Below are positions 1-19,740 of a stretch of 22,749 nucleotides of DNA, in pieces. Numbering within the stretch: position 1 is the stretch's first letter; every line of letters begins with the position of its first letter. The notes under the pieces were generated by a model. The model worked only from the letters and a program-made list of their open reading frames with translations. It did no database searches and was not told where the DNA came from. The DNA is from a virus. The position numbers and the translations under genes are program-made. The DNA lies in the IMG/VR virus record IMGVR_UViG_3300020205_001114, positions 1-22,749 of that record; one strand, 5' to 3'.

Positions 1-470
1 AATTCATCAAAAACATAAGAATTATTTGTATCCGATGCAGTGTCAAATGCATCCTGTCCTTCTGGTTCGCCATAATCAAGCAAACAACTTACTACAATAT
101 CGGTATAATTTGTTCCAGTAACGTGGCGGGTTTCTAAAAAGTTTCTTGCAGGATCGGAATTATTAACACTTCTGTCATCAACTACTTTTGTATAGGTTTG
201 ATTGTATAAACTAGCATTTGTACCTGTAGAATTTGGAGTTAAGTATGTGATAATACCAGTTGGATCAACTGACGTGCCACCATTTCCAAAGCTCATTTCG
301 TAAATGAATCCTTGTCCTGCATTACTTAGACTCTCTGCTAATGCTATACTCATATTTTCATAGTGAATAGCATTACGCTTATTAACGTAAATTTCGTTAG
401 TCGTAGGATCAAATATTTTAATATGACCTTGTATTAGAACACCGTTATTATCTTGCATAATTCCGCTCAT
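1..470 (-). CDS. Probable virion structural protein, N-terminal part (3' end outside window)
   Basis: This reading frame starts at the ATG at 470 and stays open for 156 codons to the window edge, so only the N-terminal part is visible. The protein begins MSGIMQDNNGVLIQGHIKIF. It continues with a DPTTNEIYVNKRNAIHYENM segment and a GNGGTSVDPTGIITYLTPN segment. That wording resembles small tail or baseplate proteins of marine phages, but I cannot name the family. It does not resemble T4 gp8. The gene begins 20 bases after the giant gene ends, and a TAAATA-type late promoter box overlaps that gene's stop codon. A GGAA sits 7 bases before ATG 470. A second AAGGA lies too close to that ATG and would better serve Met5 (ATG at 458), so the exact start is ambiguous by four residues. 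A baseplate or tail role is inferred from position only. Confidence 0.8.
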   Translation of the reverse strand, partial: MSGIMQDNNGVLIQGHIKIFDPTTNEIYVNKRNAIHYENMSIALAESLSNAGQGFIYEMSFGNGGTSVDPTGIITYLTPNSTGTNASLYNQTYTKVVDDRSVNNSDPARNFLETRHVTGTNYTDIVVSCLLDYGEPEGQDAFDTASDTNNSYVFDE

Positions 471-487
471 TTCCTTTTTCCGTATTG

Positions 488-495
488 TATTTATT
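488..495 (-). promoter_or_regulatory. Candidate T4-type late promoter upstream of partial gene
   Basis: The minus strand reads AATAAATA, one base off TATAAATA. It overlaps the stop codon of the giant gene and lies 17 bases before the next ATG. A promoter here would let the downstream gene be made without transcribing 15 kb first. The spacing to the ATG is short and the match may be chance. Confidence 0.35.
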
Positions 496-3400
496 CAGGT
501 AGCTTGGTTGTTCCTGCTCTCAAGAAAAACGCTATATCTGTCTGTGTTTCACTTAATGTCATGTTTGATTCTGTCCATATTTTACCTAATTTTCTCGTTA
601 CAGTTATCTGTTGATCAGCTAGAGGTGTTTCTCTTAGAATTATACTGCTACTTAGTATATTTCCTGCACTGTCAACGTTGTTGCTTAGAGTAAATTCAGC
701 AGCTACAATTTCATCACCTGTAGGACTATCTAATGCTAACACTGGGTTAAACACAGATATGTTTGATTTACGCAGTCTACGTCCTGAAACAAACACTTCA
801 AATTCATTAGCACTTGCTGCTTTAAAGTTTAAGGCAAATGTAGCAGTTAGACCAGTTGCTACTATGTTTTGCGTCTGCGTTACATCTTTATACGGAACAG
901 TTTTACTGTTGCTTTGATCAAACACGTCTGTTCCACTAGCATACAATTGCTTAACTCCAGTGCCAAGTGTTCCTCTACGTAGTTGGCGCAGTGTATTATT
1001 TTCTTTTACAAAATATTCAATACGTTCTCCATCAATAAAGATAATTCCTGGTCTGTTTGCAGATTTACTAGGTGCTGATAAAGTTGATGCATCAATCAGT
1101 TCTATTCTCAGATCAGTTTCTAGTAAAGTATTTGCTAGGACTGTTACAGGAGCATCAAGTCTCTTGTAATGTGTTCTATTAAGCATATCTTTAAATTGTC
1201 TAAATGCAAACTTTGTTTGAGAAAGTTGAGGTGTAAAATGTAAAATATCAATTACATCATCTGCATTAGGTTGTCTAACCAATCTAACTTTTGATTTATT
1301 ATCTGTTAATGAATAATCAACACTAGGTGTTAAAAGTTCACCATTTACACTTACCCAAACATACTGCGCATCAGCTGCTGGTGATCTTAATTTTATTTCT
1401 CCCACAGTAAGTCTGTTGTAAGTAACGTAATCAAGATCTTCAGCTGTTAGTGCAATTCTAGAAACTACATCATATTTTATTCTTTCAATTCCTAAAATAT
1501 CGTGGTTACTAAAGCTAAACACTTCTATAGTTTGATTAGCAATTGGTGTATCAACTAGGGTTAATGTATTTCCGTTTAGCTGGTACTCTCCATCTGTAAC
1601 AACGTATATTTCAATTAAATCTCCTACATTTCCTACTGTATCTGAAAGTACAATACTACTGTTGACAACATCAAATCTCCACTGTACCGGAGTAGTGATC
1701 TCTGTTCCATTAACAAAAACATTAACGTCTTCAGCTTGCAGCGCATTTCCTGGTTGTTGGAATGATTCTAATTGATATTCTCTTTGGCGATCAGCAGGAA
1801 CAACAAATTGAATATTGTAGCCGGGAGTAAGTATACGATTATCTACTTTAACCATAACATTATACGCAGTAGGAATTGCATAGAACGGTGCAGTATTCAA
1901 TGTAAATATTGAAGTTGATCCGTCAGCAATAAACGTATCTTTAGTAATTTGACTGTAGTTAATTACTGCATCTGTTGAGAATATTGTCCAATTAATTATT
2001 TGACCTTCTGATAATGTTTCTGCAAAACGTATTGCTGCATTACCTAATGCATCTTCTAAACCGTAGAATATTACAGATTGTTGTTCACCGTTAACTGAAA
2101 CAAAAACGCTCATACCATCAACATACTTTCTTGGTAATTCGTAGTCAGTTGTTGATCCGTCACTTACTAATCTGCCGTAGTCAATTATGTCCTGGCCGCT
2201 TCTTTCTACGCATAGGATGTTGAGTTCAGCGCCAATTACCGGTGATTGAATTGTTACTGTATTATTGATCCAATCAATTGTATATTCAGTATCAGCCAAC
2301 AGTTGATTTGCAATTTTAACAAATACCGATGGATTTGATCCTGGTACAACTCCTAGATCATATAGTGTTGTAGAATTCATTATATAACTTTGACTATAGA
2401 TAGTTCCAAGTCCACCGCTATCCCTTGTATATACTTTAATATCAAGAGTATCAAGCACTTGTCCTGGAACTAGTTCCTCAGGACCTTTACTTGTTGTAGG
2501 TGTAACAAATCCGTCACCGTCTACTAGTATTTCCTCAGCATTAATACCTCTAGCAGTTGCATACACTAGATCGCCACCACTTAGTGCAGTATCGTAACTT
2601 TCCGGATCAGGAATAAAACTACCATCGCTAGTGTATTTTCTAACTATAAGTACATCATTGTCGTTGGCAAGTATTCCGTAAATGCCAAGGTCAAGTATTC
2701 TAGTAGTTCCATCGCCAACAAAGCTAGGCATTAGTGCATTAGGATTAGTTTGTAATTCTGTACCGTAGTTAGCATCATCAATTCTGTTAGGTGTTGCTTC
2801 TCCGTATCGTTTTAAGTATACGTTGTATGTCATACCTAACGCTAATGGTGTAGCTAGTTCAATAATAGATGTTGATCCATCAAATGTAAATACTTCGTCT
2901 TCATAAGTGTTATCGTAAGTATCCCAAGTATCAGTATACCATCCTTTTACATCCCAGCCGGCAGCGCCGCCAAAATCAAAACTTGTTATCTCTACGCCAC
3001 CGTAGTCAACTCCATCCATTAAGTTTGCTAGATTTTTTCCTAACATATTTTGCAATGGATTATATGCAAAGTTAATTCTATCAGCAGCATGTAACATTGA
3101 TAGAGGACGCTTGTAAACTACTCGAATTACTGCCTCATTAGCGGGAGGATTTACAAAATTAATTCTACCCTGTTGACGTAGATATCCTGTACTTGAGTTA
3201 GAAACATTTTCATAACTATATGTACTTCTAAGTTGTTCTTCGTCATCAATATAAACAAAAACATTACTACTTTGAAGATCCATTGGCCATTCTAAATTAA
3301 ATCGTGTAGTTATATTAGTTCCTGCAAAAGTCTCCGTTTTTCCTAAAGAACTTATAAAATAATTTTTTGATGTTCTATCAAATTTAATTTTAATTGTAGG

Positions 3401-6400
3401 AGTTCTTACAACGCCGTTTCCTAATACTGCTGTTGCAGTTGCCGTAGTACTGTTAGCTGTTTGAGATCCTTCAATAATAACTGTGGGCGCAGTAATATAT
3501 CCTGTACCAGGATTAGTTACTTTAATCTTAGTAATTGCTCCGTACCCAAGATATGCTTCAGCTGTTGCGCCGGTTCCATTTCCACCAACTAATTTAATAA
3601 TAGGCTTATATGTGTATCCCGAACCTCCGTTAGCAATCTCTACACTCTTAACAGAATATCCATGATTGTCTAGCCAATTTTTTCTAGGATAGTCTAATAA
3701 TTTAGAATCTTCTGAAATTACCTGTCCTTGAAGTACAATTGCATTTGTAGGAGTAATTTTTTTCTTAAAAGTATTATAATAAGGCGGTAGATCAAAATCG
3801 CTAGTCATACTAGCAGTATTATCTATAGTCTCATATGCACTTACAAATTCTCTTATTACAGTTTTATATGGCTTAACTTCTTCAACATAAGATTTATAGC
3901 TGCTTGAAGTATCAGCATTAAATGTCCTATCTTGTTCAAGCATACCTACGTTATGCTTTATTTTAATAAAACTAGATTTAAACATCCAATCAACATATAG
4001 TTGCTCTGATAAGACATATCGTAAAGTAGCAAAAAATAGATTATTATATTCTACTTTTAATGCTCCAACAAATATATTGTCTCTAACGGTATTTAGGATA
4101 GTACGTAATTCGGTTACAGGATTACTATCGTAAATGATGCTGTCAAAATTTCTATTATCAAATCCAACTGCATTTTTACTGTAATCATATAAAGTGTCTT
4201 TAAACTCTATAGTACCGTTTTGTCTACCTACAGTTTTATAATTTATTGTATAGTCTTCTGAATCAAGATTATCTATTTTCTCAAGTAGCAACCAGCCGCC
4301 TGAATTAATATCTTGTATACGTACAGTATCCCCAATGTTATTAGTTATAGATTGAAGTTCACTTGACTGTGAAATGTTATAATCTATTGGTGTAAATTCG
4401 TTATACCCTGTAGCATACCAATCAACATAGTTCCAGTATAGATTTACATTATACCCTTGTATACCTGTTCTTGACCAAGTAGATGTTGTACTATTCCAAG
4501 TATAGATAGCCCACTTACCGTTTATCGTTGAATCACTAGATACTAGTGTGCTGAAATTTCTTACAAATATCTGTGCAGTAGGAGCATATCCACTACCGGT
4601 ACTTAGTACTTCAACGTTGGTAATTTGACCAAGGTTGTTAATCTCAATATTAAACTCAGCATCTGTACCTGTACCCGTTAGTACATAATTAGGAGCAACT
4701 TTATACCCTCGTCCAGAATTGTTAATAACTACACGCACGATTTTTCCGTTTTGAATTACAGGAGTTAATTCTGCGTGGACAAGTTTGTTTGTGCTTACAA
4801 AACGTAGTTCATCAATAGTGTCAATAACTGTATCATATTTTCCTAAAATAATATTAGGAACTTCTTCTTTAGTTAATAAAGGACTAATATCATATATGTC
4901 TGTTATTATATTTTCTTTAAGTACTAAATTAACTCGTTCAATGTACTGCTTTAGTGCTTCGTACCTGTTAACAAACATACTTTGACGAGGTCTGTTTTGA
5001 ATACCGTACTTCTGCTTAGGAGTAAGATTTTCAGCTGGAACCTTTCTATTCTGATTGTCATAACCTACTAAACTGTCAAACCATTTGCGTTCTATATCAG
5101 CATTAACTTCGCTTGACGCTAGGCCTTCAGACATAATATAATAAGCAGCATGTGTTTGCTGTTCTGTATTAGATCCAGTTGCATATTTTATATTTAAAAC
5201 AATGTCTTCGTTGTAAATTAACGAGTCGCAGTTGTTAAGAATAAATCTATCTTTACCTAAGAAACTAATAAATCTATAACCTTGTTCTCTAGGAGTTGCA
5301 ATAAGTCTTGCAATATCAAATACACTTATTGCTCTATTTTCTATCTGAGGAACAGTAAGTTTCTTTTCTACCCAGAAGTAAAATCTATTACTAAAAGTTT
5401 GTGATACACTATCGTATACAAATTTTTGGCTATATAGGGCATCACTATAAACTGATAATCCGCTTAGTCCTTGGCTTAATCCGCTATCAGTGTCTGCAAG
5501 TGAATCCCATTGGCTAGGTAGGAAATTACTTTCAACCCATTCGTAAACGTTGATTTCTGATCCTGGTTGTAACTCATTCCAATTAGCTTTTTGGTATTGT
5601 ACGTCTCCTTGGTATGGATAAGTAAATCTAGCAGTTTTAATATTCCACCAAACTTCACCTACGTGTTCGTCTGCCCAAAATACATCGGTATCAACTCCGG
5701 TATATACACCTACATTATAAGTAGCAGGATCATAAGGAACTTTGTATTTGATTTCTTGCTCTGCAGGTCCTGCAATTTTTCCTTGTATAGGATCAATAAA
5801 ATCAAGATAGGTTACTATTTGATTAGTTCTCTTATTATATAAAAATGCTCCTCTAATCTTTGAAACATCAGCTGGGGGGACAAATTCTCTTATTCTATTC
5901 CATGAAGTTGTACCTTTAGATTTTCTGTAATCTAAAACTGTACCTTTATACGTATCACTGCCTACACGAGGCATACCAACATATACATGATTATCTTTAG
6001 CTAGTAAAGTTTCACCAAAGTTTAATACAGTGCTGTCGTCGTATCGGAATGACTGAGAATATACTAACGTGTCTTCTAAATCTTCAAATATGTAAACAAC
6101 CCCAGTATCTTTAATTACGTTCTTAAATGTTGTATAACCGTTATCAAATGTAGTTTCATTTGTACTAGCAACATCAAACGTTGTTGGTATTTTCATGTCG
6201 CCATTTAAACTAGATACTACTAGATTATCGTTGCTAAACGACATTTTTGAACCAAACTTTTCTGACTCTTCATTTTGTGGAGCAAGCAACGTTTGAACTA
6301 AGTTAAACGATCCGTTGATCTGTCTATAAACATTAACCTTACCTTGATCAGTTTTTCTCTCATCGTTCTCAGGCTCAGAAACTGCAATTATATTTCCATC

Positions 6401-9400
6401 CGGTGCTAACACTATAGATTTTGTATTTTTTCCTAATACAATTGTTTGATCAAGATTATACTTATTACCAACTAATCTATAGATTGACATTATAGCAGAT
6501 GTAGAACTATCCGAATTAACTTGTTTAGATAGTACAGTTAATATAGATCCGTTGCTAGAAATATCAAACTCATTTGCAAATTCTTCTACATACTCGTCTG
6601 AAGGTTGGAAAACTTGTTCACCATAGAATGCATTTCCTGTTCTATTTGGAAGATACCCTAAGTAATCAATATCACTGGTAATTAATTCCCAATTAGCTGA
6701 GGTAATTATTGCACCTGCGGCAATATTTGTTTTTGCTTTATATAATGATCCGTTATAATTAACAATAGAACCTAATGCATACGGATATACATTATCCAGT
6801 GTTCCTCTATAATTTTCATCTTTACCCTGTCTCCAACTAATTTGATTCCAGTATATGGGATTAGATATATTTAGAACAGTTTGAGCATCAATATTTTTTA
6901 CAGCTCTATAGTAATTTCCTTTGTAATATACTATATCATCTGTTAAATAATCTGCTGATACTTTCCATGTTCCTTTAAACACATCGGTATCTGTATATCC
7001 ATGTTTAAATATTTCAATTGATCCGTAGCTTTGTTGAGAAGTATCACCAACACTAGTGACTAATAGAGTATAAAGTCCCTTATTTTTAATTAGTTTAAGT
7101 TTTTCACCAAATCTACGATCTGTTGCAGAATATTCGCTATATAATATTTCTTGCAACTTATAAGAACCGTTGCCCATTTTATAGTAAATTGCTACAGCGC
7201 CTGAACCAGCAGGTCCTGGTGATCCAAAAGCGTCAGCTGCAATATGATATATCTGTGTATAATCTTTATTAAGTTTGTTTGGTGGATTTTCGCCCCTGGC
7301 TGCGCCGCCGACAGTAAGTTCATCAAAGAACCAGTATTCTTCGTCAACGATGTAAGGGTTACTTGCTATGGGTAAATTATCAGTGTGTTCAAAAACAATT
7401 AGTTTGCCTATTTGTGAACTGCCTAATACTATATCATTGCTAAAATCGTTAACTGTACCAATTACGCGATCAACATCACCTGCGCCTCTAGCAGCAATAT
7501 TCTGTTTTCTTCTTAGTTCAACTTTACCTATGTTATTAATTTTTAACCAGTTACCTGTTTTATTTTTAACATAGACTCTAACAAAATTAAAATTTCTTTG
7601 GTAAAAAATAACTTCAACACTGCTTGTGGTATAACTGGTAAGAGCTAATCCGCCAAACTCATCAAACGGTGTTTGGACATCTTCTAATATATCGCCAATA
7701 ACTGGTTCAAATACGTTTCCGCTAAAGTCAAAATTTGTATATTCAAAATCAATGTAGCCGTCCCATAAATCAACAACTGTTTGCTTTTTGTTTAAAATAT
7801 CATAAGAAAAGCCTGCAGACGCAACATCAATAACTCTATTGTCTAGGTCGTAAAGTCGAAACTCAGATTCATAACTTATTGTTAGATCATCAGTATATGC
7901 TTTAGCACCTCTTACTACCCACTTATTAGTTAACTGACTGCCTTCAATTCCAGCTGGGTCACCAAAATAACTTAAATTTGCAATAAAGCTAGCTTGATTG
8001 TTATTGCTGATATAAGGGCCAATGCTTGCTACAGTAGTCTGTATGTTATAATAGTCAAACGCATCTCGTGTATCTGTAGACAGTAGTACGTCAACATATA
8101 CTAATCCTCGACCAATATCGTACCAACGACTGTTGTTATTATAATCAAATCCTGTTTCTATTAACCAAAAGCCACCTAGGTTATTTGAAACATTATAGGT
8201 ATCTTCTTCTGTATAGAATCCTATAAAATCTGTATCATTTACAAAAAGTTCTCCTGAAATATCAAAATTACCAGTGGTATCATTTATGTAGATTACTGCA
8301 CTGTCACCTTTAATGTCAAAGTAGCGAACTGTTCCAGCACCTGTGTCTGTTGTAACTCTATCACCTATAGATGGTAGGCCAACAAATGTTTCTACAAACA
8401 AGATGTGATCAATTTTTGCAGAAATTTCATGTATATTTTGTATAACTGATATAGTTAGATCATTTTCATCATCAAACGGAATATAGTTCTCTAATGTTGG
8501 ATAAGCAAAACTAGTTGTGTTCCATGCTAATTTTACACTGTCGCCGGCTTTAGTTCCTAAATACATGTCTAACGGAGCACGTACTAAGAAGTGGTTTGAT
8601 TCACTGTTTTCTAAACCAGGATTACCTGCAACTAGTAATTTAATTGTAGTTGAATCTGCATCTGATACACTTGCTAGTCGTACGTAGGTATCAAAAGTTG
8701 TAAATGGTTGACTAGTTGTAGTAGGAAGAATGGCTCTATTAGCCTTCCATAGACTTTCTCTGTAACGTATAATATCATTTTTACTATACGTTGAACTAGG
8801 ATTAAAGTCTCCAGTAAATCGTGTTTTTACACTACTTGCATTAGGTATACCTATTGCTAGGAATTCTCCGTCAGGACTTACTACAATAGATTTTCCAAAT
8901 TCAGCTGCTGTTATATCATATAAATCGCTAGTGTATTCAGGAGTAATTTCAGGTTCTTGTATTAGATTACTTGAATCTTTGCTCCTTCTATAATAATAAA
9001 CAACGCCATTGCCGTCATTAGGTGCTGACACAAACAGCGAACAGTTGTTGTCAGTAACTGACATTGAATAACTATATTGGTGATCGGTACTGTCAAAGAC
9101 TGCTGGATTCGATAATGTTTGCTGAATTGAATTGTACACTGGACTATTTTGATACACTGCCCAGTTACCGTTTTTATAATTATCTACCCAAATCTTTTGA
9201 TCGTTATAAATTTCTTCTTGTATTAAGTTGTTTAATCCTACTAGATTATTAACACGAACTTCACGCAGTTTTATTAATACAAAGTTTTCACTGTCAAATG
9301 GTTTAAACTCGTTTTCAATAGGAACAATTATGTTAATTGTTGCGCCATCAATAAAATCTATTTGATATATTCCAGTTAAATTATACTCACCGGCTCCCTT

Positions 9401-12400
9401 AATTCCTATCAAATCTCCTGCATTTAGAAGTGGAGCTGCCCATCTATCTACTGTTAAAGTAAAGATAGGTTTATTAGTATCAGTGTATGTTCCTAGGCTA
9501 ACTAGGGTAGTTACTTTAGCAACACTGTCTGCAACTTGATACACGTTCCACGAATTATCTTGTGTAGTTGTTAGCCATATGTATTGTCCAAACTGTAATT
9601 GATTTACGTCTGTTGTTTCAAGATCACTAATTGCTCCTGCCTTATATTCAACATCATCTTCGTACACATATCCGCTGCTCATTAAATAATCTGGATCAAT
9701 TGAGGTGGTAGGAAATGGTGCGTGATTATATCCTTCAGGCTTGTCGTATACTTCAAACGGGCGTATTCTATAAACTTTGTCAAAATTATCAGTAGGTAAC
9801 GTTTGCACTAATTCAATAGACTGAGGAGTCTCTTGCATCTTAGTTTCATCAAGTATAAATTCTACTTGTTGAACATTGTCCAGTGCACCGTAGCGTCCTA
9901 CTTGTATTGCCCATTCTTCGTAAAAATCAAAACTGTTGTTTTGAGAAGTACTTAACGGATCAAAAAGTTTAGTGATCGCATTTTTTGTGCCTTTATCTTG
10001 TATAAATCCCTGATAAAACTTATATTGACTTACATCATCAGTTATAATGTTAGCAAGATAGTCACGCTTTTGATAACCAATTAAATGTTGTGCTAGTCGT
10101 TGTTGTTCGGCATCAAAATTTCCAGAGTCAAGATCGTAAAAATCTGTAAACTGATTAATCTTATAATCAAAGTTTGTATATAGTTTTGGTACAGGTTTTT
10201 CGTTCAGTCTATACCAATATGCGCTATTAAATTCTTCTTCGCCCGGTACTGCAAATACAGCAACATAGTAGAATTGCTTGTACTTTACTAGAGTGCCAAT
10301 TGTATAGTCTTTCCATGCAGTCCATTCAACCATTTCTGCGGTGTCAAAAATAAATCCAGGAATATCTAAGCTGCCATTCCAGTTGTCTGAACGATAGCCT
10401 AATACTTTTAATCGTTCCTGTCTATAACCCGACTCTGGCTGATAGATAATGTCGTTAAACACTGTTGTATTGTCTATTAGTACAACATGTTCTTTTTGTA
10501 CTAGCGGAAACGTTACATTATAAATTCCGTCAGTGGTATTTTTTGGACTTACATGGATTGTATTTCCTTCTCTAAACACACTTATGTTTGACGGATTTAT
10601 TGTATCTCCATCTTGTTTTAAAACGTTGAACCCATAAAAGTCTTCAAATATGTCATCTGAAACACTGTAACTAGTAGTCAGTGTTATGTTATTTGCTCCT
10701 GGACTTAATGAAACAGTAGTTCCTGATGCCCATCCTTGTGTAGTCCAGAATAAAAATTCTCTTGCGCCGTGGTCCCAGTTTTCAACATATTCTGTATTTC
10801 TGTTGAAGTTATCAAAACTAAATCCTAAAGATTTTAAATAAGAATCATATCCTAAAATAAAATCTACTACATCTTGAGATGTAGAAAGTTTAGATCCGTA
10901 AGTAATTGTTTGAGGGCGTCTTTGATTAAAGTTTCTTCTAAATATTGCTCTCTTGCCACCAGTGATTGGTACATCGGTTAATAAAGCAATGTTGTCAGTA
11001 TTAAACGAGTCGCCGCTGGTAAAATTAGTAACTACTCTGTAATATTTAAAATTATTTACTAGTAGTTGGCCTTTAATATAACGTCTATTTGCTGTCCATT
11101 CAGATGAACTTTCTGTAATTCCGCCCACTGTTACTACAGGATCATTGGCAGTTTCGATTACTGGAAAATAAGTAAAATATGGAGTTTCGTCGTTATAGCC
11201 TCTAATTAAAAATCCGTCAGCTGTTTTTTCAACAATTACGCCGCTATAGTTATAAACAGCAATTGGAGAGCTTGTATTTAAAAATATATTATAGTTTTCT
11301 TCAGGAACATATAATCCTTCTGCTAAACTATTAGTAGGTGATCTACTATCTAAAATTATTTTTACTTTTTGCTTGTCAGTAAATCCACCTAGTTTAAATC
11401 CTAATTGATTAGTAAGACGCGATAAATCTTCTTTATAATCGTCATACACAGTAAGTATATTACTAGCGACTAAATTATAGATATAATTTACAAGTCCAGA
11501 AGTTTGTACTCGTTGCGTATCTTCATACGTATTTGGTACTTGAATATCCTTTAACGTAATAGGCTTTAATGTATTAGTATATACATATTGTCCTGCTAAA
11601 TTTTTAGTAATTCTAGAAACATCAAAACCTATTCCCATAACCTTAGCAGGTTGATTTAACAACCATGCTTTAATTAATGCAAACGCATAATCAGAACTTC
11701 TTCTCCATGCCGTTTCTACAGGTGCTTCGTCACCAAATTTCCAATTTTGAGTAGTGTATCTATAAAAGAAATTCTTAGCATAACTAGACGCAATAGGTGA
11801 TTTTAGCCTGCCTTTATCATCAGACGGTATAAAATTCATTAGTCCAGGTCTTACGTATTTGTTTAAAACTTTAATTTCTTTGCCTGGCTCTCTTAAAATA
11901 CCTTGCTCTAAGTCACTCCATAGTATCTCATTGTTTCCAGTGTAAGGGGCGGGACCATATACTGTATTCCACCATTTTGGTTTATTAGTTAAACCTAACA
12001 GTTCCCATGGATGACTGTGCGGGCGATCTGTATCAAAGACTTCTTTATAAACTCCTCTCCAGTGGCCCGGAAGTAGGGCGCCGTCAACAGCACTGTTCAT
12101 ATTTGAATAGTTAAATGTAAATTGATTTTCTCTTTGATAAAAGCTATTATCAGTATAATCGCTTTCAATATTTTTTAACCATTCAACAAAACTAGGGCGT
12201 AGAGAAAGATTTATTTCATCTCTACTAAAGCCTGTAATTCTTCCTTTGCTGTTTATAAAATCATTTACATCAAGCTGGCTGGCATTATACGATACTTTAA
12301 TATTATTAAATATTCTCTTTTCTAGATCGAGTATTAAGTAGTCTTTAAAATCTTTAAACGCTTTTACAAAACTGCCGTCGTGACCTCTTATTAATGCAAC

Positions 12401-15400
12401 ACCAATAGGATATTCATCAATTTCGTTATTATCAGTTCCTGCAACAATGCCGCTGTTAGCTGGCATGTAAATTACTCTGTTTAACCCGTTTAATTGTAAC
12501 TGTACTGCGGCGCCTTGACTGTCAGCATTTTGAGCAGAGCGTCTACTAGTATACACTGGATAGAACCAACCAACTGCTTGTGACACTTCGTCTTGACCGT
12601 AAATTTTAAATGGTCCGTTTACAGTAGGTTCTTCATTATTAATAAATGTATCATCAATAACAACTTGGGGATAAAAAGATGGGTATAGTCCTAATTTAGT
12701 AGGAGTTGGTGGTACAAAAGAACCGTCAGTTGTTGCAGATTCATAGATTGTAATAGTATCACCTTCTTGCTGATAACTATCAATTAATACAAATCCCTGA
12801 TCATCAAACGTGTAATCTTTAGTATGAATTAATTGGCTGTCATTTAAGTATACCGTTACTGAACGTTGACTTAGTTTTGTAGCAGAAAATACTGCACTAA
12901 GTGGGTAATAAGGATTTCTAGGATCTAACACTTCGTAAGTTAGTACAGTATTATTAGTCCCTGTATCAACCATATCAGAAAAGTAAAATGATTGTGTTTT
13001 AACTTTATCTTTATTAATTTCTTCAAACACACGATTAACGTGCTCTCTTACAGGACCATCAAATCCTAAAGTATCAGCGGTCTCAACAAAGGTTCGTTTA
13101 AAGCGAGCATATTCTTTCTTAGAAAAGTCAATTGCTTTAACAATATTATATTTTTTATTTGCTATATGATATAGTGGTAAGTTTATTGGTCCGCTATGTT
13201 TTACAAATCGCTTACCGTAAACATCTAAATCTCCTAAATCTCGCAGGTTACTAATGCCAGGAAACGTTCCTTCAAAGCCTTGTAAATCTTCAATCATACT
13301 GTCAACATGATCAATTACTTCGCCAAGAGTAAAAAATGACAAATCTTGGTTAGCAGGATTTCTTTCTAAGTTGATAGGAAAATCATACCAACCGTTGCTG
13401 TTTTTAGGTGCAACAGAATTAGTTTTAATTATAACAGTAGACCCAACTTTTAAATCTGTAAAAAATCTAATTATTAACTTTTTATTAATTCTATCAAATG
13501 TATAGTCACTATCTAACTGCTTTATAGTATTATTAACAAATACATTAACTGTTAAATCTGTTAAGGTTAATGGAGCATCATAAACATCAATTTCAAAATT
13601 ATTCCTTACATCAGCAGTTGCAATGTATTGTCTAATTACTTTTTGTTTGGTAATAGTTGGAGTACTTGCCCAACCATTTGCCCATTTAAATGAACTTATA
13701 TTTGAATATTTTCTTAAATTACCTATAGAAGTAGACACAGGAATTATATCTGTTTCTGTTTGATACGTAAATGTATCAGTTAACAAATTAAATTCGAATT
13801 GTATATCACCACTATTATTAATATTTCTGTATACTAAAGGAAATCCTAATTCACTATCAGTAGTTCCGTTACCTATAGAATAACTAAACAGTTTAGTTCC
13901 TTTAAATGTGCTTGAATTAAAAACATCACTGTTGGTATAGTTGTTACCTTCTGGGCAGCAAAGATCAAATAGTGGTGGTTGATTCCTAATAGTTTTTTGT
14001 TGCGCTTGAATCCATACATTATTATGATAATGAAAAGTTTGCCCAGCAAATTTTGTTCCGCTTTTAACAAATACTGTTTCAAGGTGTACTGGGTCAGTAT
14101 CCGCAGTCTCAATTAAGCTAATTTGTCTAACGTTATTAATAGTTACAAATTTTACTTGATAAATTTTACCACTTACCAGCACATCAGTATCTGCTGTAAA
14201 TAGAATTCTCATTCCTTCAGCAAGATCAATCTCATCAACGTTGTAGCCTAAACTTCCTTCAATTGTAGAAAAAACGTCTAATGTAAATGTGTCTATTAGG
14301 TCTACATCTGTTTTTGCAGCAACACCAAAATTAAATAATTTTAATCCTGCTTCAAATTCTATAATAGGACGCTTTGCACGTAGTTCCTCATCTAAATTAT
14401 ACGCAATTTTGCTGTAAGTTGAGCTTGCAATTACTACATCTTTATGAACCCACTTATTGTAACGACTCCATGGGTTCTTGTCAGGACTTGCTCTGTTAAC
14501 AACAATATAATCTTTTTCTTTTGCATAAGATTCAGAGTTTGAAAATGGTAGTGAATCAAACTTTTCGCTATCAAACGGTACTTCAATTGTTTGTGCATAT
14601 GCAGCAGGAATTATTAGATCACGTTCGTTTATTAATTTAATTTTGTCGCCAACACCTTCAACATACCAGCTATCTTTGCTGTATTGAACTGGAGTAACTG
14701 CCCCAATAAAATTAACTCGCATGCCGTTAGTAAGTGTTGCACCGTTAGCACTCTTATACGTTTTCTTTCCTAATATGTCTGTTTCAACATCTACAAAAGA
14801 GTTTTCTTCAATGTCATAGATTCTTACTATTCCACTAGTATCAACGTTATTTTTTGAAATATAATATAATCTGTTTGGAGCGTTTAAAGGAATAGTAAAT
14901 TCTATAGTACCCTTTTCAATATAAACGTTTGCAATTTCTTCTCCTGCTTCTCCCAACTTACGAATACCGTCAGGGTATAATGTTGATACATTTTCAGCAG
15001 CAGCAAATGTAACTGATCCGCTATCAGGTAATACAATATATTCACCCAAATCGTATTCATTTCCGTATAGTTGTGCATCAAACAATCCTGCGCCGCGAAT
15101 ACCTTCACGACCGGCTGTGATTAACGCATTACCAGGAGTAACTGTTTTACTGATAGCAAACGCTATTGGGTGTCCAGGTGTATTAATTTCAAATCTGTAT
15201 GTTTGTCCTCTATACAATTTTAACGTAGGGTTAGATGTAAGACCGTCAGGAGAAAATACATAAGAAGTATTATCAACATTATCAGCTAGTGTAACAGTAT
15301 ATGTGCTTACAACATCTTTGTTTTGACCAGCTATTCTTACGCTGGGCGGGCCGCCTGCTAGCCAATAGTAATTGCGGAAGTTTACAAATTTATCCCAATC

Positions 15401-15808
15401 AATATTTGGATTCCATGCATATGTTTCTTGACTGTTTAAACGACTGTGATTGTTGGTGTTTCCGCCAAAGGCAGTAATTTGATTGATGTAATCATTATAA
15501 TCTTTGTAAAATGTTACATTATCTAGATTATCTTTAATAACAGCAGCAGGTTCTAACTGATAGTTAGTTCTATCTACACTTATATCACCTACATAAGCAT
15601 CAGTGGCCGCAAATGCTTTTGCATTTTTTCTACCTACGTATCCACTAATTTTTTCAGCAACGCCGGGCTGTGTTAATTGATCAAGGGTGGCTTGCAAAAA
15701 CTTTTTATTAGCTTCAGTTCTAAAATATCTTGGTAGTAGTTCAGAAGTAGCACGTTTATTCTTACCAGGAACTGGTAGTGCTGATTCGTTTTGATTTTCG
15801 TTAGCCAT
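491..15808 (-). CDS. Giant 5105-residue modular virion structural protein in gene-7 position
   Basis: This is one uninterrupted frame of 5105 codons (about 560 kDa) directly after the gp6-like gene, where T4 has gene 7 (gp7 is about 1030 residues). The ATG at 15808 lies 2 bases after the gp6 stop (TAA-TA-ATG), with a weak GGGAG 12 bases upstream. Several segments read like large structural proteins of marine T4-like phages: the N-terminus (ELLPRYFRTEANKKFLQATL), NPWSRYNKWVHKD near residue 450, a WELLG/KWWNTVYGPAPYT region near 1270-1310 and NAEEILVDGDGFVTPTTSKG near 4420. Modules visible in order are a cupredoxin-like domain (about 175-335), W/Y carbohydrate-binding-like modules (1570, 1830, 2335 and 2945-3045), FG-GAP-like propeller blades (2244-3310), GxGY repeats (3685-3750 and 4053-4115), a run of VxVNG modules (4490-4860) and an IDGERIEYF module (4915-4973). 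I counted only about five cysteines and saw no signal peptide, membrane segment or catalytic motif. A baseplate-peripheral, scaffold or fibre role is inferred, not proven. Confidence 0.9.
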   Translation of the reverse strand: MANENQNESALPVPGKNKRATSELLPRYFRTEANKKFLQATLDQLTQPGVAEKISGYVGRKNAKAFAATDAYVGDISVDRTNYQLEPAAVIKDNLDNVTFYKDYNDYINQITAFGGNTNNHSRLNSQETYAWNPNIDWDKFVNFRNYYWLAGGPPSVRIAGQNKDVVSTYTVTLADNVDNTSYVFSPDGLTSNPTLKLYRGQTYRFEINTPGHPIAFAISKTVTPGNALITAGREGIRGAGLFDAQLYGNEYDLGEYIVLPDSGSVTFAAAENVSTLYPDGIRKLGEAGEEIANVYIEKGTIEFTIPLNAPNRLYYISKNNVDTSGIVRIYDIEENSFVDVETDILGKKTYKSANGATLTNGMRVNFIGAVTPVQYSKDSWYVEGVGDKIKLINERDLIIPAAYAQTIEVPFDSEKFDSLPFSNSESYAKEKDYIVVNRASPDKNPWSRYNKWVHKDVVIASSTYSKIAYNLDEELRAKRPIIEFEAGLKLFNFGVAAKTDVDLIDTFTLDVFSTIEGSLGYNVDEIDLAEGMRILFTADTDVLVSGKIYQVKFVTINNVRQISLIETADTDPVHLETVFVKSGTKFAGQTFHYHNNVWIQAQQKTIRNQPPLFDLCCPEGNNYTNSDVFNSSTFKGTKLFSYSIGNGTTDSELGFPLVYRNINNSGDIQFEFNLLTDTFTYQTETDIIPVSTSIGNLRKYSNISSFKWANGWASTPTITKQKVIRQYIATADVRNNFEIDVYDAPLTLTDLTVNVFVNNTIKQLDSDYTFDRINKKLIIRFFTDLKVGSTVIIKTNSVAPKNSNGWYDFPINLERNPANQDLSFFTLGEVIDHVDSMIEDLQGFEGTFPGISNLRDLGDLDVYGKRFVKHSGPINLPLYHIANKKYNIVKAIDFSKKEYARFKRTFVETADTLGFDGPVREHVNRVFEEINKDKVKTQSFYFSDMVDTGTNNTVLTYEVLDPRNPYYPLSAVFSATKLSQRSVTVYLNDSQLIHTKDYTFDDQGFVLIDSYQQEGDTITIYESATTDGSFVPPTPTKLGLYPSFYPQVVIDDTFINNEEPTVNGPFKIYGQDEVSQAVGWFYPVYTSRRSAQNADSQGAAVQLQLNGLNRVIYMPANSGIVAGTDNNEIDEYPIGVALIRGHDGSFVKAFKDFKDYLILDLEKRIFNNIKVSYNASQLDVNDFINSKGRITGFSRDEINLSLRPSFVEWLKNIESDYTDNSFYQRENQFTFNYSNMNSAVDGALLPGHWRGVYKEVFDTDRPHSHPWELLGLTNKPKWWNTVYGPAPYTGNNEILWSDLEQGILREPGKEIKVLNKYVRPGLMNFIPSDDKGRLKSPIASSYAKNFFYRYTTQNWKFGDEAPVETAWRRSSDYAFALIKAWLLNQPAKVMGIGFDVSRITKNLAGQYVYTNTLKPITLKDIQVPNTYEDTQRVQTSGLVNYIYNLVASNILTVYDDYKEDLSRLTNQLGFKLGGFTDKQKVKIILDSRSPTNSLAEGLYVPEENYNIFLNTSSPIAVYNYSGVIVEKTADGFLIRGYNDETPYFTYFPVIETANDPVVTVGGITESSSEWTANRRYIKGQLLVNNFKYYRVVTNFTSGDSFNTDNIALLTDVPITGGKRAIFRRNFNQRRPQTITYGSKLSTSQDVVDFILGYDSYLKSLGFSFDNFNRNTEYVENWDHGAREFLFWTTQGWASGTTVSLSPGANNITLTTSYSVSDDIFEDFYGFNVLKQDGDTINPSNISVFREGNTIHVSPKNTTDGIYNVTFPLVQKEHVVLIDNTTVFNDIIYQPESGYRQERLKVLGYRSDNWNGSLDIPGFIFDTAEMVEWTAWKDYTIGTLVKYKQFYYVAVFAVPGEEEFNSAYWYRLNEKPVPKLYTNFDYKINQFTDFYDLDSGNFDAEQQRLAQHLIGYQKRDYLANIITDDVSQYKFYQGFIQDKGTKNAITKLFDPLSTSQNNSFDFYEEWAIQVGRYGALDNVQQVEFILDETKMQETPQSIELVQTLPTDNFDKVYRIRPFEVYDKPEGYNHAPFPTTSIDPDYLMSSGYVYEDDVEYKAGAISDLETTDVNQLQFGQYIWLTTTQDNSWNVYQVADSVAKVTTLVSLGTYTDTNKPIFTLTVDRWAAPLLNAGDLIGIKGAGEYNLTGIYQIDFIDGATINIIVPIENEFKPFDSENFVLIKLREVRVNNLVGLNNLIQEEIYNDQKIWVDNYKNGNWAVYQNSPVYNSIQQTLSNPAVFDSTDHQYSYSMSVTDNNCSLFVSAPNDGNGVVYYYRRSKDSSNLIQEPEITPEYTSDLYDITAAEFGKSIVVSPDGEFLAIGIPNASSVKTRFTGDFNPSSTYSKNDIIRYRESLWKANRAILPTTTSQPFTTFDTYVRLASVSDADSTTIKLLVAGNPGLENSESNHFLVRAPLDMYLGTKAGDSVKLAWNTTSFAYPTLENYIPFDDENDLTISVIQNIHEISAKIDHILFVETFVGLPSIGDRVTTDTGAGTVRYFDIKGDSAVIYINDTTGNFDISGELFVNDTDFIGFYTEEDTYNVSNNLGGFWLIETGFDYNNNSRWYDIGRGLVYVDVLLSTDTRDAFDYYNIQTTVASIGPYISNNNQASFIANLSYFGDPAGIEGSQLTNKWVVRGAKAYTDDLTISYESEFRLYDLDNRVIDVASAGFSYDILNKKQTVVDLWDGYIDFEYTNFDFSGNVFEPVIGDILEDVQTPFDEFGGLALTSYTTSSVEVIFYQRNFNFVRVYVKNKTGNWLKINNIGKVELRRKQNIAARGAGDVDRVIGTVNDFSNDIVLGSSQIGKLIVFEHTDNLPIASNPYIVDEEYWFFDELTVGGAARGENPPNKLNKDYTQIYHIAADAFGSPGPAGSGAVAIYYKMGNGSYKLQEILYSEYSATDRRFGEKLKLIKNKGLYTLLVTSVGDTSQQSYGSIEIFKHGYTDTDVFKGTWKVSADYLTDDIVYYKGNYYRAVKNIDAQTVLNISNPIYWNQISWRQGKDENYRGTLDNVYPYALGSIVNYNGSLYKAKTNIAAGAIITSANWELITSDIDYLGYLPNRTGNAFYGEQVFQPSDEYVEEFANEFDISSNGSILTVLSKQVNSDSSTSAIMSIYRLVGNKYNLDQTIVLGKNTKSIVLAPDGNIIAVSEPENDERKTDQGKVNVYRQINGSFNLVQTLLAPQNEESEKFGSKMSFSNDNLVVSSLNGDMKIPTTFDVASTNETTFDNGYTTFKNVIKDTGVVYIFEDLEDTLVYSQSFRYDDSTVLNFGETLLAKDNHVYVGMPRVGSDTYKGTVLDYRKSKGTTSWNRIREFVPPADVSKIRGAFLYNKRTNQIVTYLDFIDPIQGKIAGPAEQEIKYKVPYDPATYNVGVYTGVDTDVFWADEHVGEVWWNIKTARFTYPYQGDVQYQKANWNELQPGSEINVYEWVESNFLPSQWDSLADTDSGLSQGLSGLSVYSDALYSQKFVYDSVSQTFSNRFYFWVEKKLTVPQIENRAISVFDIARLIATPREQGYRFISFLGKDRFILNNCDSLIYNEDIVLNIKYATGSNTEQQTHAAYYIMSEGLASSEVNADIERKWFDSLVGYDNQNRKVPAENLTPKQKYGIQNRPRQSMFVNRYEALKQYIERVNLVLKENIITDIYDISPLLTKEEVPNIILGKYDTVIDTIDELRFVSTNKLVHAELTPVIQNGKIVRVVINNSGRGYKVAPNYVLTGTGTDAEFNIEINNLGQITNVEVLSTGSGYAPTAQIFVRNFSTLVSSDSTINGKWAIYTWNSTTSTWSRTGIQGYNVNLYWNYVDWYATGYNEFTPIDYNISQSSELQSITNNIGDTVRIQDINSGGWLLLEKIDNLDSEDYTINYKTVGRQNGTIEFKDTLYDYSKNAVGFDNRNFDSIIYDSNPVTELRTILNTVRDNIFVGALKVEYNNLFFATLRYVLSEQLYVDWMFKSSFIKIKHNVGMLEQDRTFNADTSSSYKSYVEEVKPYKTVIREFVSAYETIDNTASMTSDFDLPPYYNTFKKKITPTNAIVLQGQVISEDSKLLDYPRKNWLDNHGYSVKSVEIANGGSGYTYKPIIKLVGGNGTGATAEAYLGYGAITKIKVTNPGTGYITAPTVIIEGSQTANSTTATATAVLGNGVVRTPTIKIKFDRTSKNYFISSLGKTETFAGTNITTRFNLEWPMDLQSSNVFVYIDDEEQLRSTYSYENVSNSSTGYLRQQGRINFVNPPANEAVIRVVYKRPLSMLHAADRINFAYNPLQNMLGKNLANLMDGVDYGGVEITSFDFGGAAGWDVKGWYTDTWDTYDNTYEDEVFTFDGSTSIIELATPLALGMTYNVYLKRYGEATPNRIDDANYGTELQTNPNALMPSFVGDGTTRILDLGIYGILANDNDVLIVRKYTSDGSFIPDPESYDTALSGGDLVYATARGINAEEILVDGDGFVTPTTSKGPEELVPGQVLDTLDIKVYTRDSGGLGTIYSQSYIMNSTTLYDLGVVPGSNPSVFVKIANQLLADTEYTIDWINNTVTIQSPVIGAELNILCVERSGQDIIDYGRLVSDGSTTDYELPRKYVDGMSVFVSVNGEQQSVIFYGLEDALGNAAIRFAETLSEGQIINWTIFSTDAVINYSQITKDTFIADGSTSIFTLNTAPFYAIPTAYNVMVKVDNRILTPGYNIQFVVPADRQREYQLESFQQPGNALQAEDVNVFVNGTEITTPVQWRFDVVNSSIVLSDTVGNVGDLIEIYVVTDGEYQLNGNTLTLVDTPIANQTIEVFSFSNHDILGIERIKYDVVSRIALTAEDLDYVTYNRLTVGEIKLRSPAADAQYVWVSVNGELLTPSVDYSLTDNKSKVRLVRQPNADDVIDILHFTPQLSQTKFAFRQFKDMLNRTHYKRLDAPVTVLANTLLETDLRIELIDASTLSAPSKSANRPGIIFIDGERIEYFVKENNTLRQLRRGTLGTGVKQLYASGTDVFDQSNSKTVPYKDVTQTQNIVATGLTATFALNFKAASANEFEVFVSGRRLRKSNISVFNPVLALDSPTGDEIVAAEFTLSNNVDSAGNILSSSIILRETPLADQQITVTRKLGKIWTESNMTLSETQTDIAFFLRAGTTKLPE
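575..2345 (-). repeat. C-terminal run of VxVNG-type beta modules in giant protein
   Basis: From about residue 4488 to near the C-terminus the protein is a series of similar units. Each has an opening strand such as SVFVKIANQLL, SVFVSVNGEQQ, YNVMVKVDNRIL, DVNVFVNGTEI, YVWVSVNGELL or FEVFVSGRRL. A Y-x-I/L-D or equivalent turn follows, and then a closing strand ending D-x-I-x-I-x. Single copies also occur earlier, near 13420-13560 (NVFVNNTIKQL), 12740-12865 (SVTVYLNDSQL) and 3115-3275 (NVFVYIDDEEQL). Between 890 and 1065 lies a distinct module with FIDGERIEYF and LRQLRRGTLGTG, which I recognise from marine phage structural proteins. The array looks like a fibre- or arm-building beta structure, by inference. 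Confidence 0.55.
3465..3655 (-). repeat. GxGY repeat pair (second)
   Basis: Residues about 4052-4115 carry VEIANGGSGYTYKPIIKLVG, then a GTGATAEAYLG linker strand and ITKIKVTNPGTGYITAPTVI. The full repeat period (GSGY, P, GxGAxAxA, I-T-x-I-x-V, GTGY, aP-x-V) is more regular here than in the first pair. Confidence 0.65.
4558..4755 (-). repeat. GxGY repeat pair (first)
   Basis: Residues about 3685-3751 contain two units, VVINNSGRGYKVAPNYVLTG and ITNVEVLSTGSGYAPTAQIF. Each has a hydrophobic strand, N/S-x-G-x-GY and a following P-x-V/I strand. This short repeat is common in phage structural proteins and in some bacterial surface proteins. A second pair occurs about 300 residues later. The role is probably architectural. 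Confidence 0.6.
6680..6978 (-). repeat. Two adjacent W/Y modules resembling chitin-binding (CBM5/12-like) domains
   Basis: Residues about 2945-3044 of the giant protein hold two consecutive units. The first reads GTWKVSADYLTDDIVYYKGN followed by YYRAV and, further on, a YWNQI end. The second reads GTLDNVYPYALGSIVNYNGS followed by LYKAK and an NWELI end. The shared pattern is an initial W or hydrophobic residue, Y, G/D-x-I-V-x-Y-x-G, a YxA strand and a closing W. Small CBM5/12-type modules of chitinases and phage tail proteins have this pattern. They lie between propeller units 3 and 4. Sugar binding is possible but unproven. Confidence 0.5.
8677..8815 (-). repeat. W/Y carbohydrate-binding-like module inside propeller unit 2
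   Basis: Residues about 2332-2378 read FNPSSTYSKNDIIRYRESLW and then KANRAI, with a TFDTYVRL end. They follow the same Y, D-x-I-x-Y, LWKA pattern as the adjacent pair at 6680-6978. The module directly follows the second FG-GAP-like unit and opens the long stretch that separates that unit from its closing strand. Confidence 0.45.
10205..10330 (-). repeat. W/Y carbohydrate-binding-like module
   Basis: Residues about 1827-1868 of the giant protein read EWTAWKDYTIGTLVKYKQFY, then YVAVFAVPG and an AYWYRL end. The layout (W, Y-x-I-G-x-L-V-x-Y, YYVA, closing W) matches the other W/Y modules of this protein. It is the clearest single copy outside the adjacent pair. Confidence 0.5.
11035..11105 (-). 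repeat. Partial or diverged W/Y module
   Basis: Residues about 1569-1592 read EWTANRRYIKGQLLVNNFKY followed by YRVV. This shares the EW, Y-x-x-G-x-L-V and YY pattern of the later copy near residue 1827, but no clear closing W follows. It is the weakest of the five copies and may be a diverged one. Confidence 0.35.
14804..15286 (-). other. Cupredoxin-like domain without copper ligands, in giant protein
   Basis: Residues about 175-335 of the giant protein show the start NPTLKLYRGQTYRFEINTPG followed by HP. The closing half is IEFTIPLNAPNRLYYISKNN and then GIVRIYD. This is the usual order of the plastocyanin-like domain common in marine proteins, where the second half normally reads roughly LYYxCxxHxxMxGxI. 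Here the Cys, His and Met positions are replaced (ISKNNVDTSG), leaving only the early His. A purely structural beta-sandwich is therefore more likely than a metal site. The fold assignment comes from pattern recognition. Confidence 0.6.
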
Positions 15809-15810
15809 TA

Positions 15811-18800
15811 TTAGTAAGAACTCCCATTAATAGAACTCTGTATTCCAGAAGTGCTACTTGATATACTTGTAACAACGTTACCTAATGCTTTTAGATTTGT
15901 TGCTGTAATTTCGTCAATTATTTCAACATCAGCAACTGTTGCTGCCGATACAAATATTTCGTCTGATTCTGATTTAATTTCAAACAAACTACCAAATCCT
16001 TGTGCTGTTTGTTTTGGTACTAATAATAATGAAACTAAATTAGGTGATAAATTATTCATAACATATGCGCTTAGTTCCGAGAAGTAAAAAGTATCACCAA
16101 AATTCCAATATTCTATACTAAAAAATTTATTAATCGCATCGATAACTTTTGATTTGATTTCATTGTTGTTAATTGTTAATCCTGGATTTTTTACGATCTT
16201 AAAGGTTGCTTGTAGGTCTTCTCTTGCTTTTGATCCGAACAGTACCTTGTACTTAACAGGATGATAAACTATTTCATCACTTATTGATTTAATTTTGTTA
16301 ATCTCAAATCCATAGCTTCTAAATAATTCATCGCTGCTTGGTGGCAGAGGTTTATTAGTTAACGTTCCGCTAATCCATTTTCTAAATTCTGTATCATAAC
16401 CTTTAGTTAAGAAATAGGTATCTATAATATTAGTAGAGCTAGGATCAATTCTATAATTAGAATCTGCTACGTGTACATAATGAAATTTTAAATTATCTCT
16501 TCCAACAAATCCTCTATAGTTAGAGGTAACTGATGAATTATTATTTGCGATACTTAATACTTTGAAAACTCCTTCTTCTATAAGGTAGAATGTTTGTCCT
16601 TCGCTGTAGCTACTAGGTGAGCCTATTGCAGCTTCATTAGCTCTAACTAAGATTGTATTATTAGAATTATCAAAATATTTAAAATCTTCAACTCCGTCAG
16701 TTGTGATGTATTTCTTTTGAAATACGAACTTAGTTGAACTGTTCACAGTTTCACTGACTATTTGTTCAAATACTTCAGGGTTATCAGAAACACCATCATC
16801 ATCTTTATCAAAAAATTCAACTTGAATTTTTCTTGAATCTACATAGCCGTCGCTATCTCTAAATGCGTCAGAAATTGTCCAAGGAAAATCTTCTGTAAAT
16901 GATACCAACGAATCAGGCTGTCTGTTGATGTTTAATATTGAAATTTTATCTTTAATAAGTTGTCCAGTCTTTGGATCATATATTCTGTCTGCACTGTCAA
17001 AGAAAAATCTAATTTCATTTGCGCTCTCAAATACATATCGTAAGTTACGATAGGTAATTGTGTAAGTTTCGCCGTTGGTTTTAAAATATAGTATCCAACT
17101 AGAATCAAGGTTTTGTCCGCTTGTATCGCCAGCTTTACCTGTGTTAAAATTGTTTATTGTATTAATATTTTCAGCCGTAATGATTTTCCATTGGCGGGCT
17201 TCTCTATCATATCTTAATGCAAAATCTCTATAAGCAAATACTCTATCAATAATTTGAGACTTAATATCAGAAATTAATACTCTTGATAATTTAGGAACAA
17301 TTTGAGTTAATATTGCGCCTTCTGGAATAATATCGTTTAAGACCAGTGCGCCAGCACTGCTGCTGTCAATTTGTGTTCCGTTGCCATAAACACTTACCAC
17401 TTTTGTCCATTTGTAAGTTGATGCTCCTAAATGGTCAGAGTCTCCTATCATTAATGTGCCGTTAGGCATAAAATGATATCCGGTTGGTGCGGTAAATTTA
17501 ATTAGGGCGCCGGGTTCAATTAATCTTAAACTATTTGCTGTAAAACTTCCTACTGGTTGTCTTACAGAGTCACTGTCAATAAAGAATCCAGTTGACCTGT
17601 TTGTTGAAGTAGTAACTTGTGCCCAAGACACACCTAAATCACTTACAATGATTTTGCCGTATTTGTCAAGATAAAAATTATTAGTATTTGTACTTGACAG
17701 TATTGGTTCAATTGTATTGTATATAACACCTTCAATGTCTGACTGAGTGTTAAACGTAAACGAAGTTTTTCTTAAAAAGTCTTCTTTATATATAATTCCG
17801 TCATCTGCAAATAAACTTGTGTTTGAATATTTTCCACTTGCATCTTTGAGGTCATAATATCGACTAATTCCGCTTGCTACTCTATTAACAGATTTAGTTT
17901 TAATAATATCTTGGCTTATTCCCAAAGGACCAATATTATAATCTTCAGCAGTAATTAATCTATTTTGAGTGTAATATGTAGCAGGTGCATTAGCTTTAAT
18001 ATCTGCATTACTTTCTGATGTTGCTCCGTTAGCTACAGAGTATTTTAAACTTAGCCCCAGTGTAAGAGTTTCTTGTACATTATTTTTACTAATATACGGA
18101 ATATCAATAGAGATGTTATTTAATGCACCTGGATTAATAACACTGTTTCTATTCTCACTAACTCTATAATAAATTTTAAAGTTTCCGGATGGTAAGTTAC
18201 CAAATACACCATCGCTAAACACTAAGTTAATTCTATCTTCAATTCGTGTTTGTACAGCGTACACACTGCGAGTACCTCTAAACAAGCTATTATAGATAAT
18301 ATTATTTCCCTCAACTGCATCAATCTTTGTCCACAGTTCAGTTTCAATACCATTTGTATCTGTGCTATAGAGCCATACATCAGAATTATTAATATTAGTT
18401 GAGTCAATAGAAACTAGCTGATTTGGGGTAGTATTGTTGATTAAAAATGTACCATTATCAAGACGCCCTTGACGGAAGTGCATAAAGAAACCAGTATTAG
18501 AACTGCCTGCACCTTGGCCATCATCTCTATAGAGGAACGCTGTATTATTTCCTGGAAGTGGAGGTTCTTCCACAATACTTCCATTAAAAATGTCAGAACT
18601 TACTATCTCAAATCGTGTACTTAATCCTTCAATATTTTTAGTAAAAGGATAAACAGGTAAATCAGTATTTGCAGCCTGAAACCTATATTGCTGTGTTAAT
18701 ACTCCAGAAATATTTTCACTTTTAACTGGTCTGCCATAGGTGCCATTTACTGGCAATGCTGCATTGAGAACTTTAACAAACTGTTCAAAATAGTTTGTAT

Positions 18801-19280: not shown

Positions 19281-19318
19281 TAGCAATTATATGCTAACTT
19301 TATTATCCAATATTGGAT
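19281..19318 (-). promoter_or_regulatory. Two dyad symmetries between gp25- and gp6-like genes
   Basis: A perfect 14-base palindrome, ATCCAATATTGGAT, occupies 19305-19318 over the last codons and stop of the gp25-like gene. About ten bases further along the transcript, TAGCA and TGCTA flank TATAAT (19281-19296), which could form a 5-bp stem with a 6-base loop. TATAAT equals a sigma70 -10 box, but no -35 box at standard spacing is visible. No U-run follows, so this is not a classic terminator. It could be an RNA-processing or protein-binding site, or chance. Confidence 0.35.
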
Positions 19319-19740
19319 GCTTGATCAAATTTAAAGCGGAGTTGCTCAGAAATATTATAAGGAATATAAGACAGTGTACAGTCTATGCTGATACCTGATT
19401 CGTAAGTATCAACAATAACTTCTTCTACTCGAACACGAGGATCGTAGTTTACAATTTCCGTAACATTATCTATAATTGCTTGTTTTACTTGGTTAGTAAA
19501 CGGTTCAAATAACATATCCCAGATAATTGTTCCAAAACTAGGATCAGATAGTTTTTCTCCTTGACGGATATGAAAGTGATTGATAATATCTTGTTTGATT
19601 AATTCAAAATCATAAAGAGCGTAGCCCTCTGTACTTTGATTTACCGATGAAAACCCTCTGTAGGCTCGGCCAACCTGTCCTCGTTGAGGCCCCGAAGATA
19701 CAGTAACACGTTTATAAAGATTTTTTTCTAATGTACTCAT
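19303..19740 (-). CDS. gp25: Baseplate wedge protein gp25-like
   Basis: This 145-residue protein belongs to the GPW/gp25 family of contractile-tail baseplates, including TssE of type VI secretion. In T4, gp25 sits in the inner wedge with gp6 and gp53 and is thought to help start sheath assembly. Visible hallmarks are the RQGEKLSDPSFGTIIWDMLF segment at about 58-77, matching the family's G-x-R-x-x-P-x-F-G...LFE signature, and YDPR near residue 99, corresponding to YEPR in T4. The length is close to T4 gp25 (132 residues), with a slightly longer N-terminus. The ATG at 19740 lies 23 bases after the gp5-like stop, with AAGG 10 bases upstream. The family is sometimes called lysozyme-like, but no lysozyme catalytic signature is visible. 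Confidence 0.94.
   Translation of the reverse strand: MSTLEKNLYKRVTVSSGPQRGQVGRAYRGFSSVNQSTEGYALYDFELIKQDIINHFHIRQGEKLSDPSFGTIIWDMLFEPFTNQVKQAIIDNVTEIVNYDPRVRVEEVIVDTYESGISIDCTLSYIPYNISEQLRFKFDQASNIG

Follow-up and report, generated by a model that had tools for sequence, protein, structure and literature searches.

A single 5105-codon gene after gp6 encodes a giant protein of the tail baseplate in a marine jumbo phage

A viral stretch of 22,749 nucleotides (IMG/VR record IMGVR_UViG_3300020205_001114, positions 1 to 22,749; hereafter the window) contains a 15.3-kb reading frame without a stop directly after a baseplate gene. Is this frame one gene, and does its product take the place of T4 gp7? 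The frame occupies positions 491..15808 of the minus strand, reads from 15808 to 491 and has exactly 5105 codons, with an ATG start 2 bases past the gp6 stop. On the plus strand, the same interval has many stops throughout. The encoded protein has a computed mass of 574 kDa, a pI of 4.7 and 5 Cys. A sequence-only reading of this DNA had described a real gene (strand unstated) placed after gp6, with T4 gp7 at about one fifth of its size, and these points stood (1032 against 5105 residues). Its estimate that six copies would add about 3.4 MDa to the baseplate also agrees with the computed mass (about 3.45 MDa), as arithmetic on an assumed copy number.

When the frame was compared with that of a 67 %-identical relative in bins of 250 codons, divergence was highest at codon position 3, lower at position 1 and lowest at position 2 in each bin (identities of 0.44-0.57, 0.67-0.81 and 0.73-0.93, respectively). 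As the codon positions diverge in this order everywhere, the entire frame is under protein-level constraint.

In IMG/VR, a scan found relatives of the N-terminal 2100 residues encoded on 301 stretches, a tally that counts duplicate contigs. The possibility had been raised that homologues carry this region as several separate genes. Among the fetched loci with both N- and C-terminal parts, named isolates included, the two were found in one frame in 86 out of 86 and none was split; in 88 loci, the end of gp6 lies no more than 150 bases from the giant frame. Complete frames of close relatives range from 4693 to 5345 codons in dozens of contigs, two close relatives at contig ends are open for at least 5441 codons, and more distant relatives have 3400-4302 codons. 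The coding pattern, together with a homologous frame that is unbroken in every relative examined, shows that 491..15808 is a true gene rather than a chance open frame. An assembly or frame-joining artefact, an idea prompted by size alone and for which nothing was found, is vanishingly improbable: the same single frame recurs in dozens of contigs and in eight named isolates, and the coding pattern is unbroken along it. Misassembly and joined genes were thus rejected, and we conclude that a marine jumbo phage here carries a real, intact gene for a giant protein of the tail baseplate.

A 357,559-base contig with 70 % identity retains the order hub, gp6, giant gene (5136 codons), small gene and fibre genes. 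The giant gene is also present on contigs of 335 kb and 153 kb that are binned in one Neomarinimicrobiota metagenome-assembled genome; these look like jumbo phages binned into it and may give a hint of the host. The two contigs are 99.95 % identical across 26 kb at the giant locus.

In the window, the order in the direction of transcription (all minus strand) is a gp5-like hub gene (19764..22361, 865 aa; phrog_13211, E-value 1.1e-45), gp25 (19303..19740, 145 aa; baseplate wedge, PF04965, E-value 8.9e-9), gp6 (15811..19245; baseplate wedge, phrog_10646 and phrog_219; 64 phages), the giant gene and a phrog_11259 gene (3..470). The gp6 product is 1144 aa long, compared with 660 aa in T4. The C-terminus of the hub protein carries a D-Ala-D-Ala carboxypeptidase (M15) domain (PF13539, E-value 9.4e-14), whereas the RaK2 and CBB hubs carry a T4-type lysozyme. 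Only the start of the phrog_11259 gene is included, as it is cut by the window end. It encodes about 200 aa in relatives, comes after the giant gene in most of them and is full-length in the 357-kb relative; that its product is a fibre connector is a guess. Downstream of the giant gene in the 357-kb relative, fibre genes with a Collar domain were found. Neither Pfam nor PHROG gave a gp8 among the genes next after the giant gene in this relative, and no gp8-gp11 genes were recognised downstream of it. The genes from gp6 to the fibre genes include no further recognised candidate for gp7.

In the PHROG scan, the giant protein was assigned to phrog_10938, annotated as 'virion structural protein' (E-values of 9.5e-104, 5.3e-141 and 1.8e-84 for three slices), a family of giant proteins from Rak2-like, PA5oct-like and Atu_ph07-like jumbo phages. 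The same single gene stands at the post-gp6 place, downstream of gp25-gp6, in PA5oct (gp355, 3857 aa), Atu_ph07 (gp180, 4449 aa), Phosso (4555 aa), 121Q (3323 aa), RaK2 (ORF070, 3326 aa), XbC2 (3339 aa), CBB (3340 aa) and Vibrio phage 2.275.O (3771 aa). Profile and BLAST comparisons place these proteins in one family with the window protein across the greater part of the N-terminal 2100 residues, at 24-30 % identity; the window protein is longer (5105 aa, against 3323-4555 aa in the isolates). Salicola phage SCTP-2 also has the giant gene, with gp6 about 92 kb away. In the fetched SCTP-2 locus, a 3096-aa protein is encoded right before the giant (5624-14914 and 14992-26415, respectively).

The family is known from virions. 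The record of PA5oct gp355 is annotated 'ESI-MS/MS' for virion detection, and CBB_236, which is the 3340-aa gene after gp6 in the CBB record, was detected in the virion by mass spectrometry through 21 unique peptides, for a coverage of 7.72 % (PMC5259590, Table 4); the window protein itself is known here from its gene. A UniProt entry from an uncultured Caudovirales phage (A0A6J5L0K2, 'YHYH domain-containing protein') shares 45 % identity with the 3290-4300 model across 856 aligned columns, which places close relatives already in UniProt. The window gene is therefore a longer marine member of an already known, virion-borne family, and the novelty implied by the sequence-only reading does not hold, as both the family and the size class occur in named phages (PA5oct, CBB, RaK2 and cyanophages). 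In the literature, no paper was found that treats the giant protein as a giant gp7.

Across distant isolates, residues 1-200, 400-900, 1200-2050, 3300-3600 and 3800-4000 are conserved. On alignment grounds, the middle of the protein, at about 2050-3300, is a marine addition that the isolates largely lack; it holds propeller-like repeats and further CBM5/12-like modules. Recognisable structural segments had been claimed from end to end. This was borne out for family profiles at about 17-728, 1141-1822 and 3287-3637 and for scattered repeats; outside these, only close marine relatives have recognisable counterparts.

The conserved N-terminus (residues 1-165; 15314..15808, this and all following positions on the minus strand) was defined from alignments of isolates and marine contigs by the motifs LP..FR...KF, YQLEPA and W.P.ID.DKF.NF..YYW, and no known fold was found for it. 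It is followed by a region (residues 168-335; 14804..15307) that is inserted relative to most isolates, with 88 % gap in the isolates at residues 201-300. By eye only, this region reads like a cupredoxin-type fold. It contains the motifs LYRGQTYRFE...GHP and APNRLYYISKN, and all aligned marine relatives lack the usual cupredoxin metal ligands at the second motif. A phrog_677 match at residues 164-224 was set aside as it falls inside the inserted region.

Iterated HMMs within the family identified five CBM5/12-like modules, five propeller-like (FG-GAP-like) repeats, three GSGY repeats and several beta 'bead' modules. The CBM5/12-like modules are at residues 1571-1610 (10979..11098), 1829-1869 (10202..10324), 2335-2371 (8696..8806), 2948-2983 (6860..6967) and 3005-3043 (6680..6796). 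One copy exceeds the Pfam CBM_5_12 cutoff (29.3 bits against 26.2), and the predicted fold of the first module resembles a region of the Vibrio chitooligosaccharide deacetylase 9jeo (Z 6.9, rmsd 1.3, 45 aligned residues). The propeller-like repeats are at residues 2245-2329 (8822..9076) and 2866-2936 (7001..7213), with three more at 3077-3300 (5909..6580); FG-GAP_2 scored 16.2 and 15.3 bits, below the Pfam cutoff of 23. Given these weak, small domains, glycan binding is putative. GSGY repeat 1 is at residues 3695-3734 (4607..4726) and repeats 2 and 3 at 4058-4135 (3404..3637). PHROG matches to families 438, 708 and 2885 (baseplate wedge) and 460 (head-closure) were traced to these GSGY repeats and were not taken as evidence for gp7.

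Bead modules were found at residues 738-818 (13355..13597), 968-1028 (12725..12907), 4678-4738 (1595..1777) and 4813-4859 (1232..1372), the last resembling the T7 tail-fibre N-domain (PF03906, E-value 1.2e-4; 22.2 bits, below the cutoff of 25.2). In the AF2 model, a beta module at residues of about 4159-4239 (3092..3334) has a predicted tail-fibre anchor fold. When it was compared using VIA-align, matches spanning 64-73 residues were obtained with the DT57C neck protein 8hqo (Z 9.0), the CBA120 TSP4 anchor 7rfv (8.8), the T5 portal complex (8.6), the T7 gp17 N-terminus 7boz (7.1) and T4 gp6 5iv5 (6.6). The AF2 models of residues 1200-2240 (pLDDT 63) and 3290-4300 (pLDDT 76) are usable for single modules only. 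Foldseek against PDB gave no solved structure at E < 0.001; ferredoxin reductase and ubiquitin E1, the top matches of the 1200-2240 model, were set aside as they look like common beta-barrel arrangements. A sequence search of solved structures with four profiles returned only the chitinase A1 CBM (E-value 0.22) and the Dpo31 tailspike (E-value 0.0047).

The T4 gp7 sequence was taken from record NC_000866. When 12 slices of the giant protein were compared with T4 gp7 directly, by HMM and by HHalign, nothing above chance was observed; the best HHalign score was 15.4 against 16.6 for shuffled sequences, with the best segment on the same motif as described below (734-753). A comparison with large post-gp6 proteins of cyanophages had been proposed by the sequence-only reading and was carried out. 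Through a weak gp6 match to Synechococcus phage Sf-CH8, a region with the order gp25, gp6, a 4878-aa 'baseplate wedge subunit' and gp8 (PF09215, E-value 3.2e-15) was reached. The post-gp6 proteins of ACG-2014f ('baseplate wedge initiator') and MED4-213 have 4225 aa and 4458 aa, respectively, so that 4225-4878 codons stand between gp6 and gp8 in these phages. Marine T4-like phages thus commonly have giant proteins at the gp7 position. In Sf-CH8, a 7407-base gene annotated 'virulence-associated VriC protein' comes after gp8 (record positions 58695-66101).

The cyanophage giants (phrog_2885) are similar to the window protein in size and in their place right after gp6, and they have GSGY repeats, a KGT motif and an IDGE/RRG module. 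Overall, however, they belong to a different family with another order of motifs, and they are followed by gp8, which the giant of the window lineage is not. Positions 195-362 of a profile of the first 400 cyanophage residues match T4 gp7 733-919 (score 47.9; shuffled 18.8, sd 3.2; 0/100). By HHalign, residues 1911-1970 of the window protein (9899..10078), with the motif FY.GFI.DKGT.NA..KLF...EEWA, match cyanophage residues 174-230 (32.5; shuffled mean 15.3, sd 2.7; 0/150). In a blind scan of 51 slices against the cyanophage profile, residues 1930-1969 ranked first (to 191-229), and second was the C-terminal IDGE/RRG module (residues 4887-4968; 905..1150), which matched cyanophage 71-143 (30.2; shuffled 13.3, sd 2.5). 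AF2 confidence over the KGT region is low (model residues 653-835 under 50).

These comparisons support a weak gp7-core-like motif at residues 1930-1969, whose link to T4 gp7 runs solely through the cyanophage proteins. As it is short, the KGT motif supports a gp7-type element without proving orthology. A model in which the gp7 core begins with residues 22-165 as its first half and is then interrupted by 1750 inserted residues before the KGT motif found no support in profile comparison. In T4, gp8 lies next to gp7; because the gp6-gp7-gp8 order is not kept in the window lineage, the giant was not filed as a member of the gp7 family. The sequence-only reading had also suggested a fusion of gp7-like wedge, arm and fibre functions in one chain. 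The gp7-like motif shared with the cyanophage giants and the sugar-binding and fibre-anchor-like modules are consistent with that idea, but a literal gp7+gp8+gp9+gp10 fusion was not found, and the direct comparison with T4 gp7 stayed at chance.

Taken together, a marine jumbo myovirus related to Rak2 and Atu_ph07 encodes this giant as its post-gp6 baseplate protein, which probably serves as an enlarged wedge scaffold replacing T4 gp7. The N-terminus and the KGT motif may contact the gp6 dimer of each wedge, with six copies per baseplate. Through its long insertions, the same chain would also form the outer baseplate, on which the propeller-like stretch and the five CBM5/12-like modules would be exposed and could attach to glycans of the cell surface or matrix. 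The tail fibres encoded just downstream would dock on the C-terminal beta modules. The low AF2 confidence over the KGT region and the lack of a Foldseek match at E < 0.001 count against the wedge assignment, and so do the chance-level likeness to T4 gp7 in direct comparison and the SCTP-2 giant, located away from gp6. The last two speak for a peripheral adhesin or fibre-network protein on the baseplate, the role of gp7 being filled by another gene or by gp6, which is itself enlarged, and much of the chain does consist of sugar-binding, propeller-like and fibre-anchor modules. We consider this somewhat unlikely. Distant isolates conserve the N-terminus, 1200-2050 and 3300-4000 most strongly, not the adhesin-like modules, the KGT motif ties the giant to cyanophage proteins at the gp7 position, and the interval from gp6 to the fibres offers no other recognised gp7 candidate.

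The size and modular layout of the protein, and the lack of recognisable gp8-gp11 genes downstream in the 357-kb relative, would also suit a polyprotein or precursor that is cut into several baseplate proteins matching gp7, gp8, gp9 and gp10. Pfam, however, finds no gp8, gp9 or gp10 domain inside the giant, and nothing in the mass spectrometry reports on PA5oct and CBB suggests cleavage (at the low coverage noted above for CBB), which makes such processing very unlikely. At the other extreme, a single uncut 574-kDa chain would supply not only the wedge core but all of the outer baseplate as well, with a sugar-binding organelle built in. This reading is unlikely; if it is true, the baseplate formed by six copies would carry its receptor-binding layer as a covalent part of the wedge.

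The surprise at the size of this protein is answered by its family and by the cyanophages, which have comparable proteins. In a widespread lineage of marine jumbo phages, a protein of about 5000 residues at the gp7 position is the norm rather than an exception, and the giants of cyanophages and jumbo phages have a small gp7-type motif in common. The locus thus provides an entry point to how phages enlarge the baseplate wedge and place glycan-binding parts in it.
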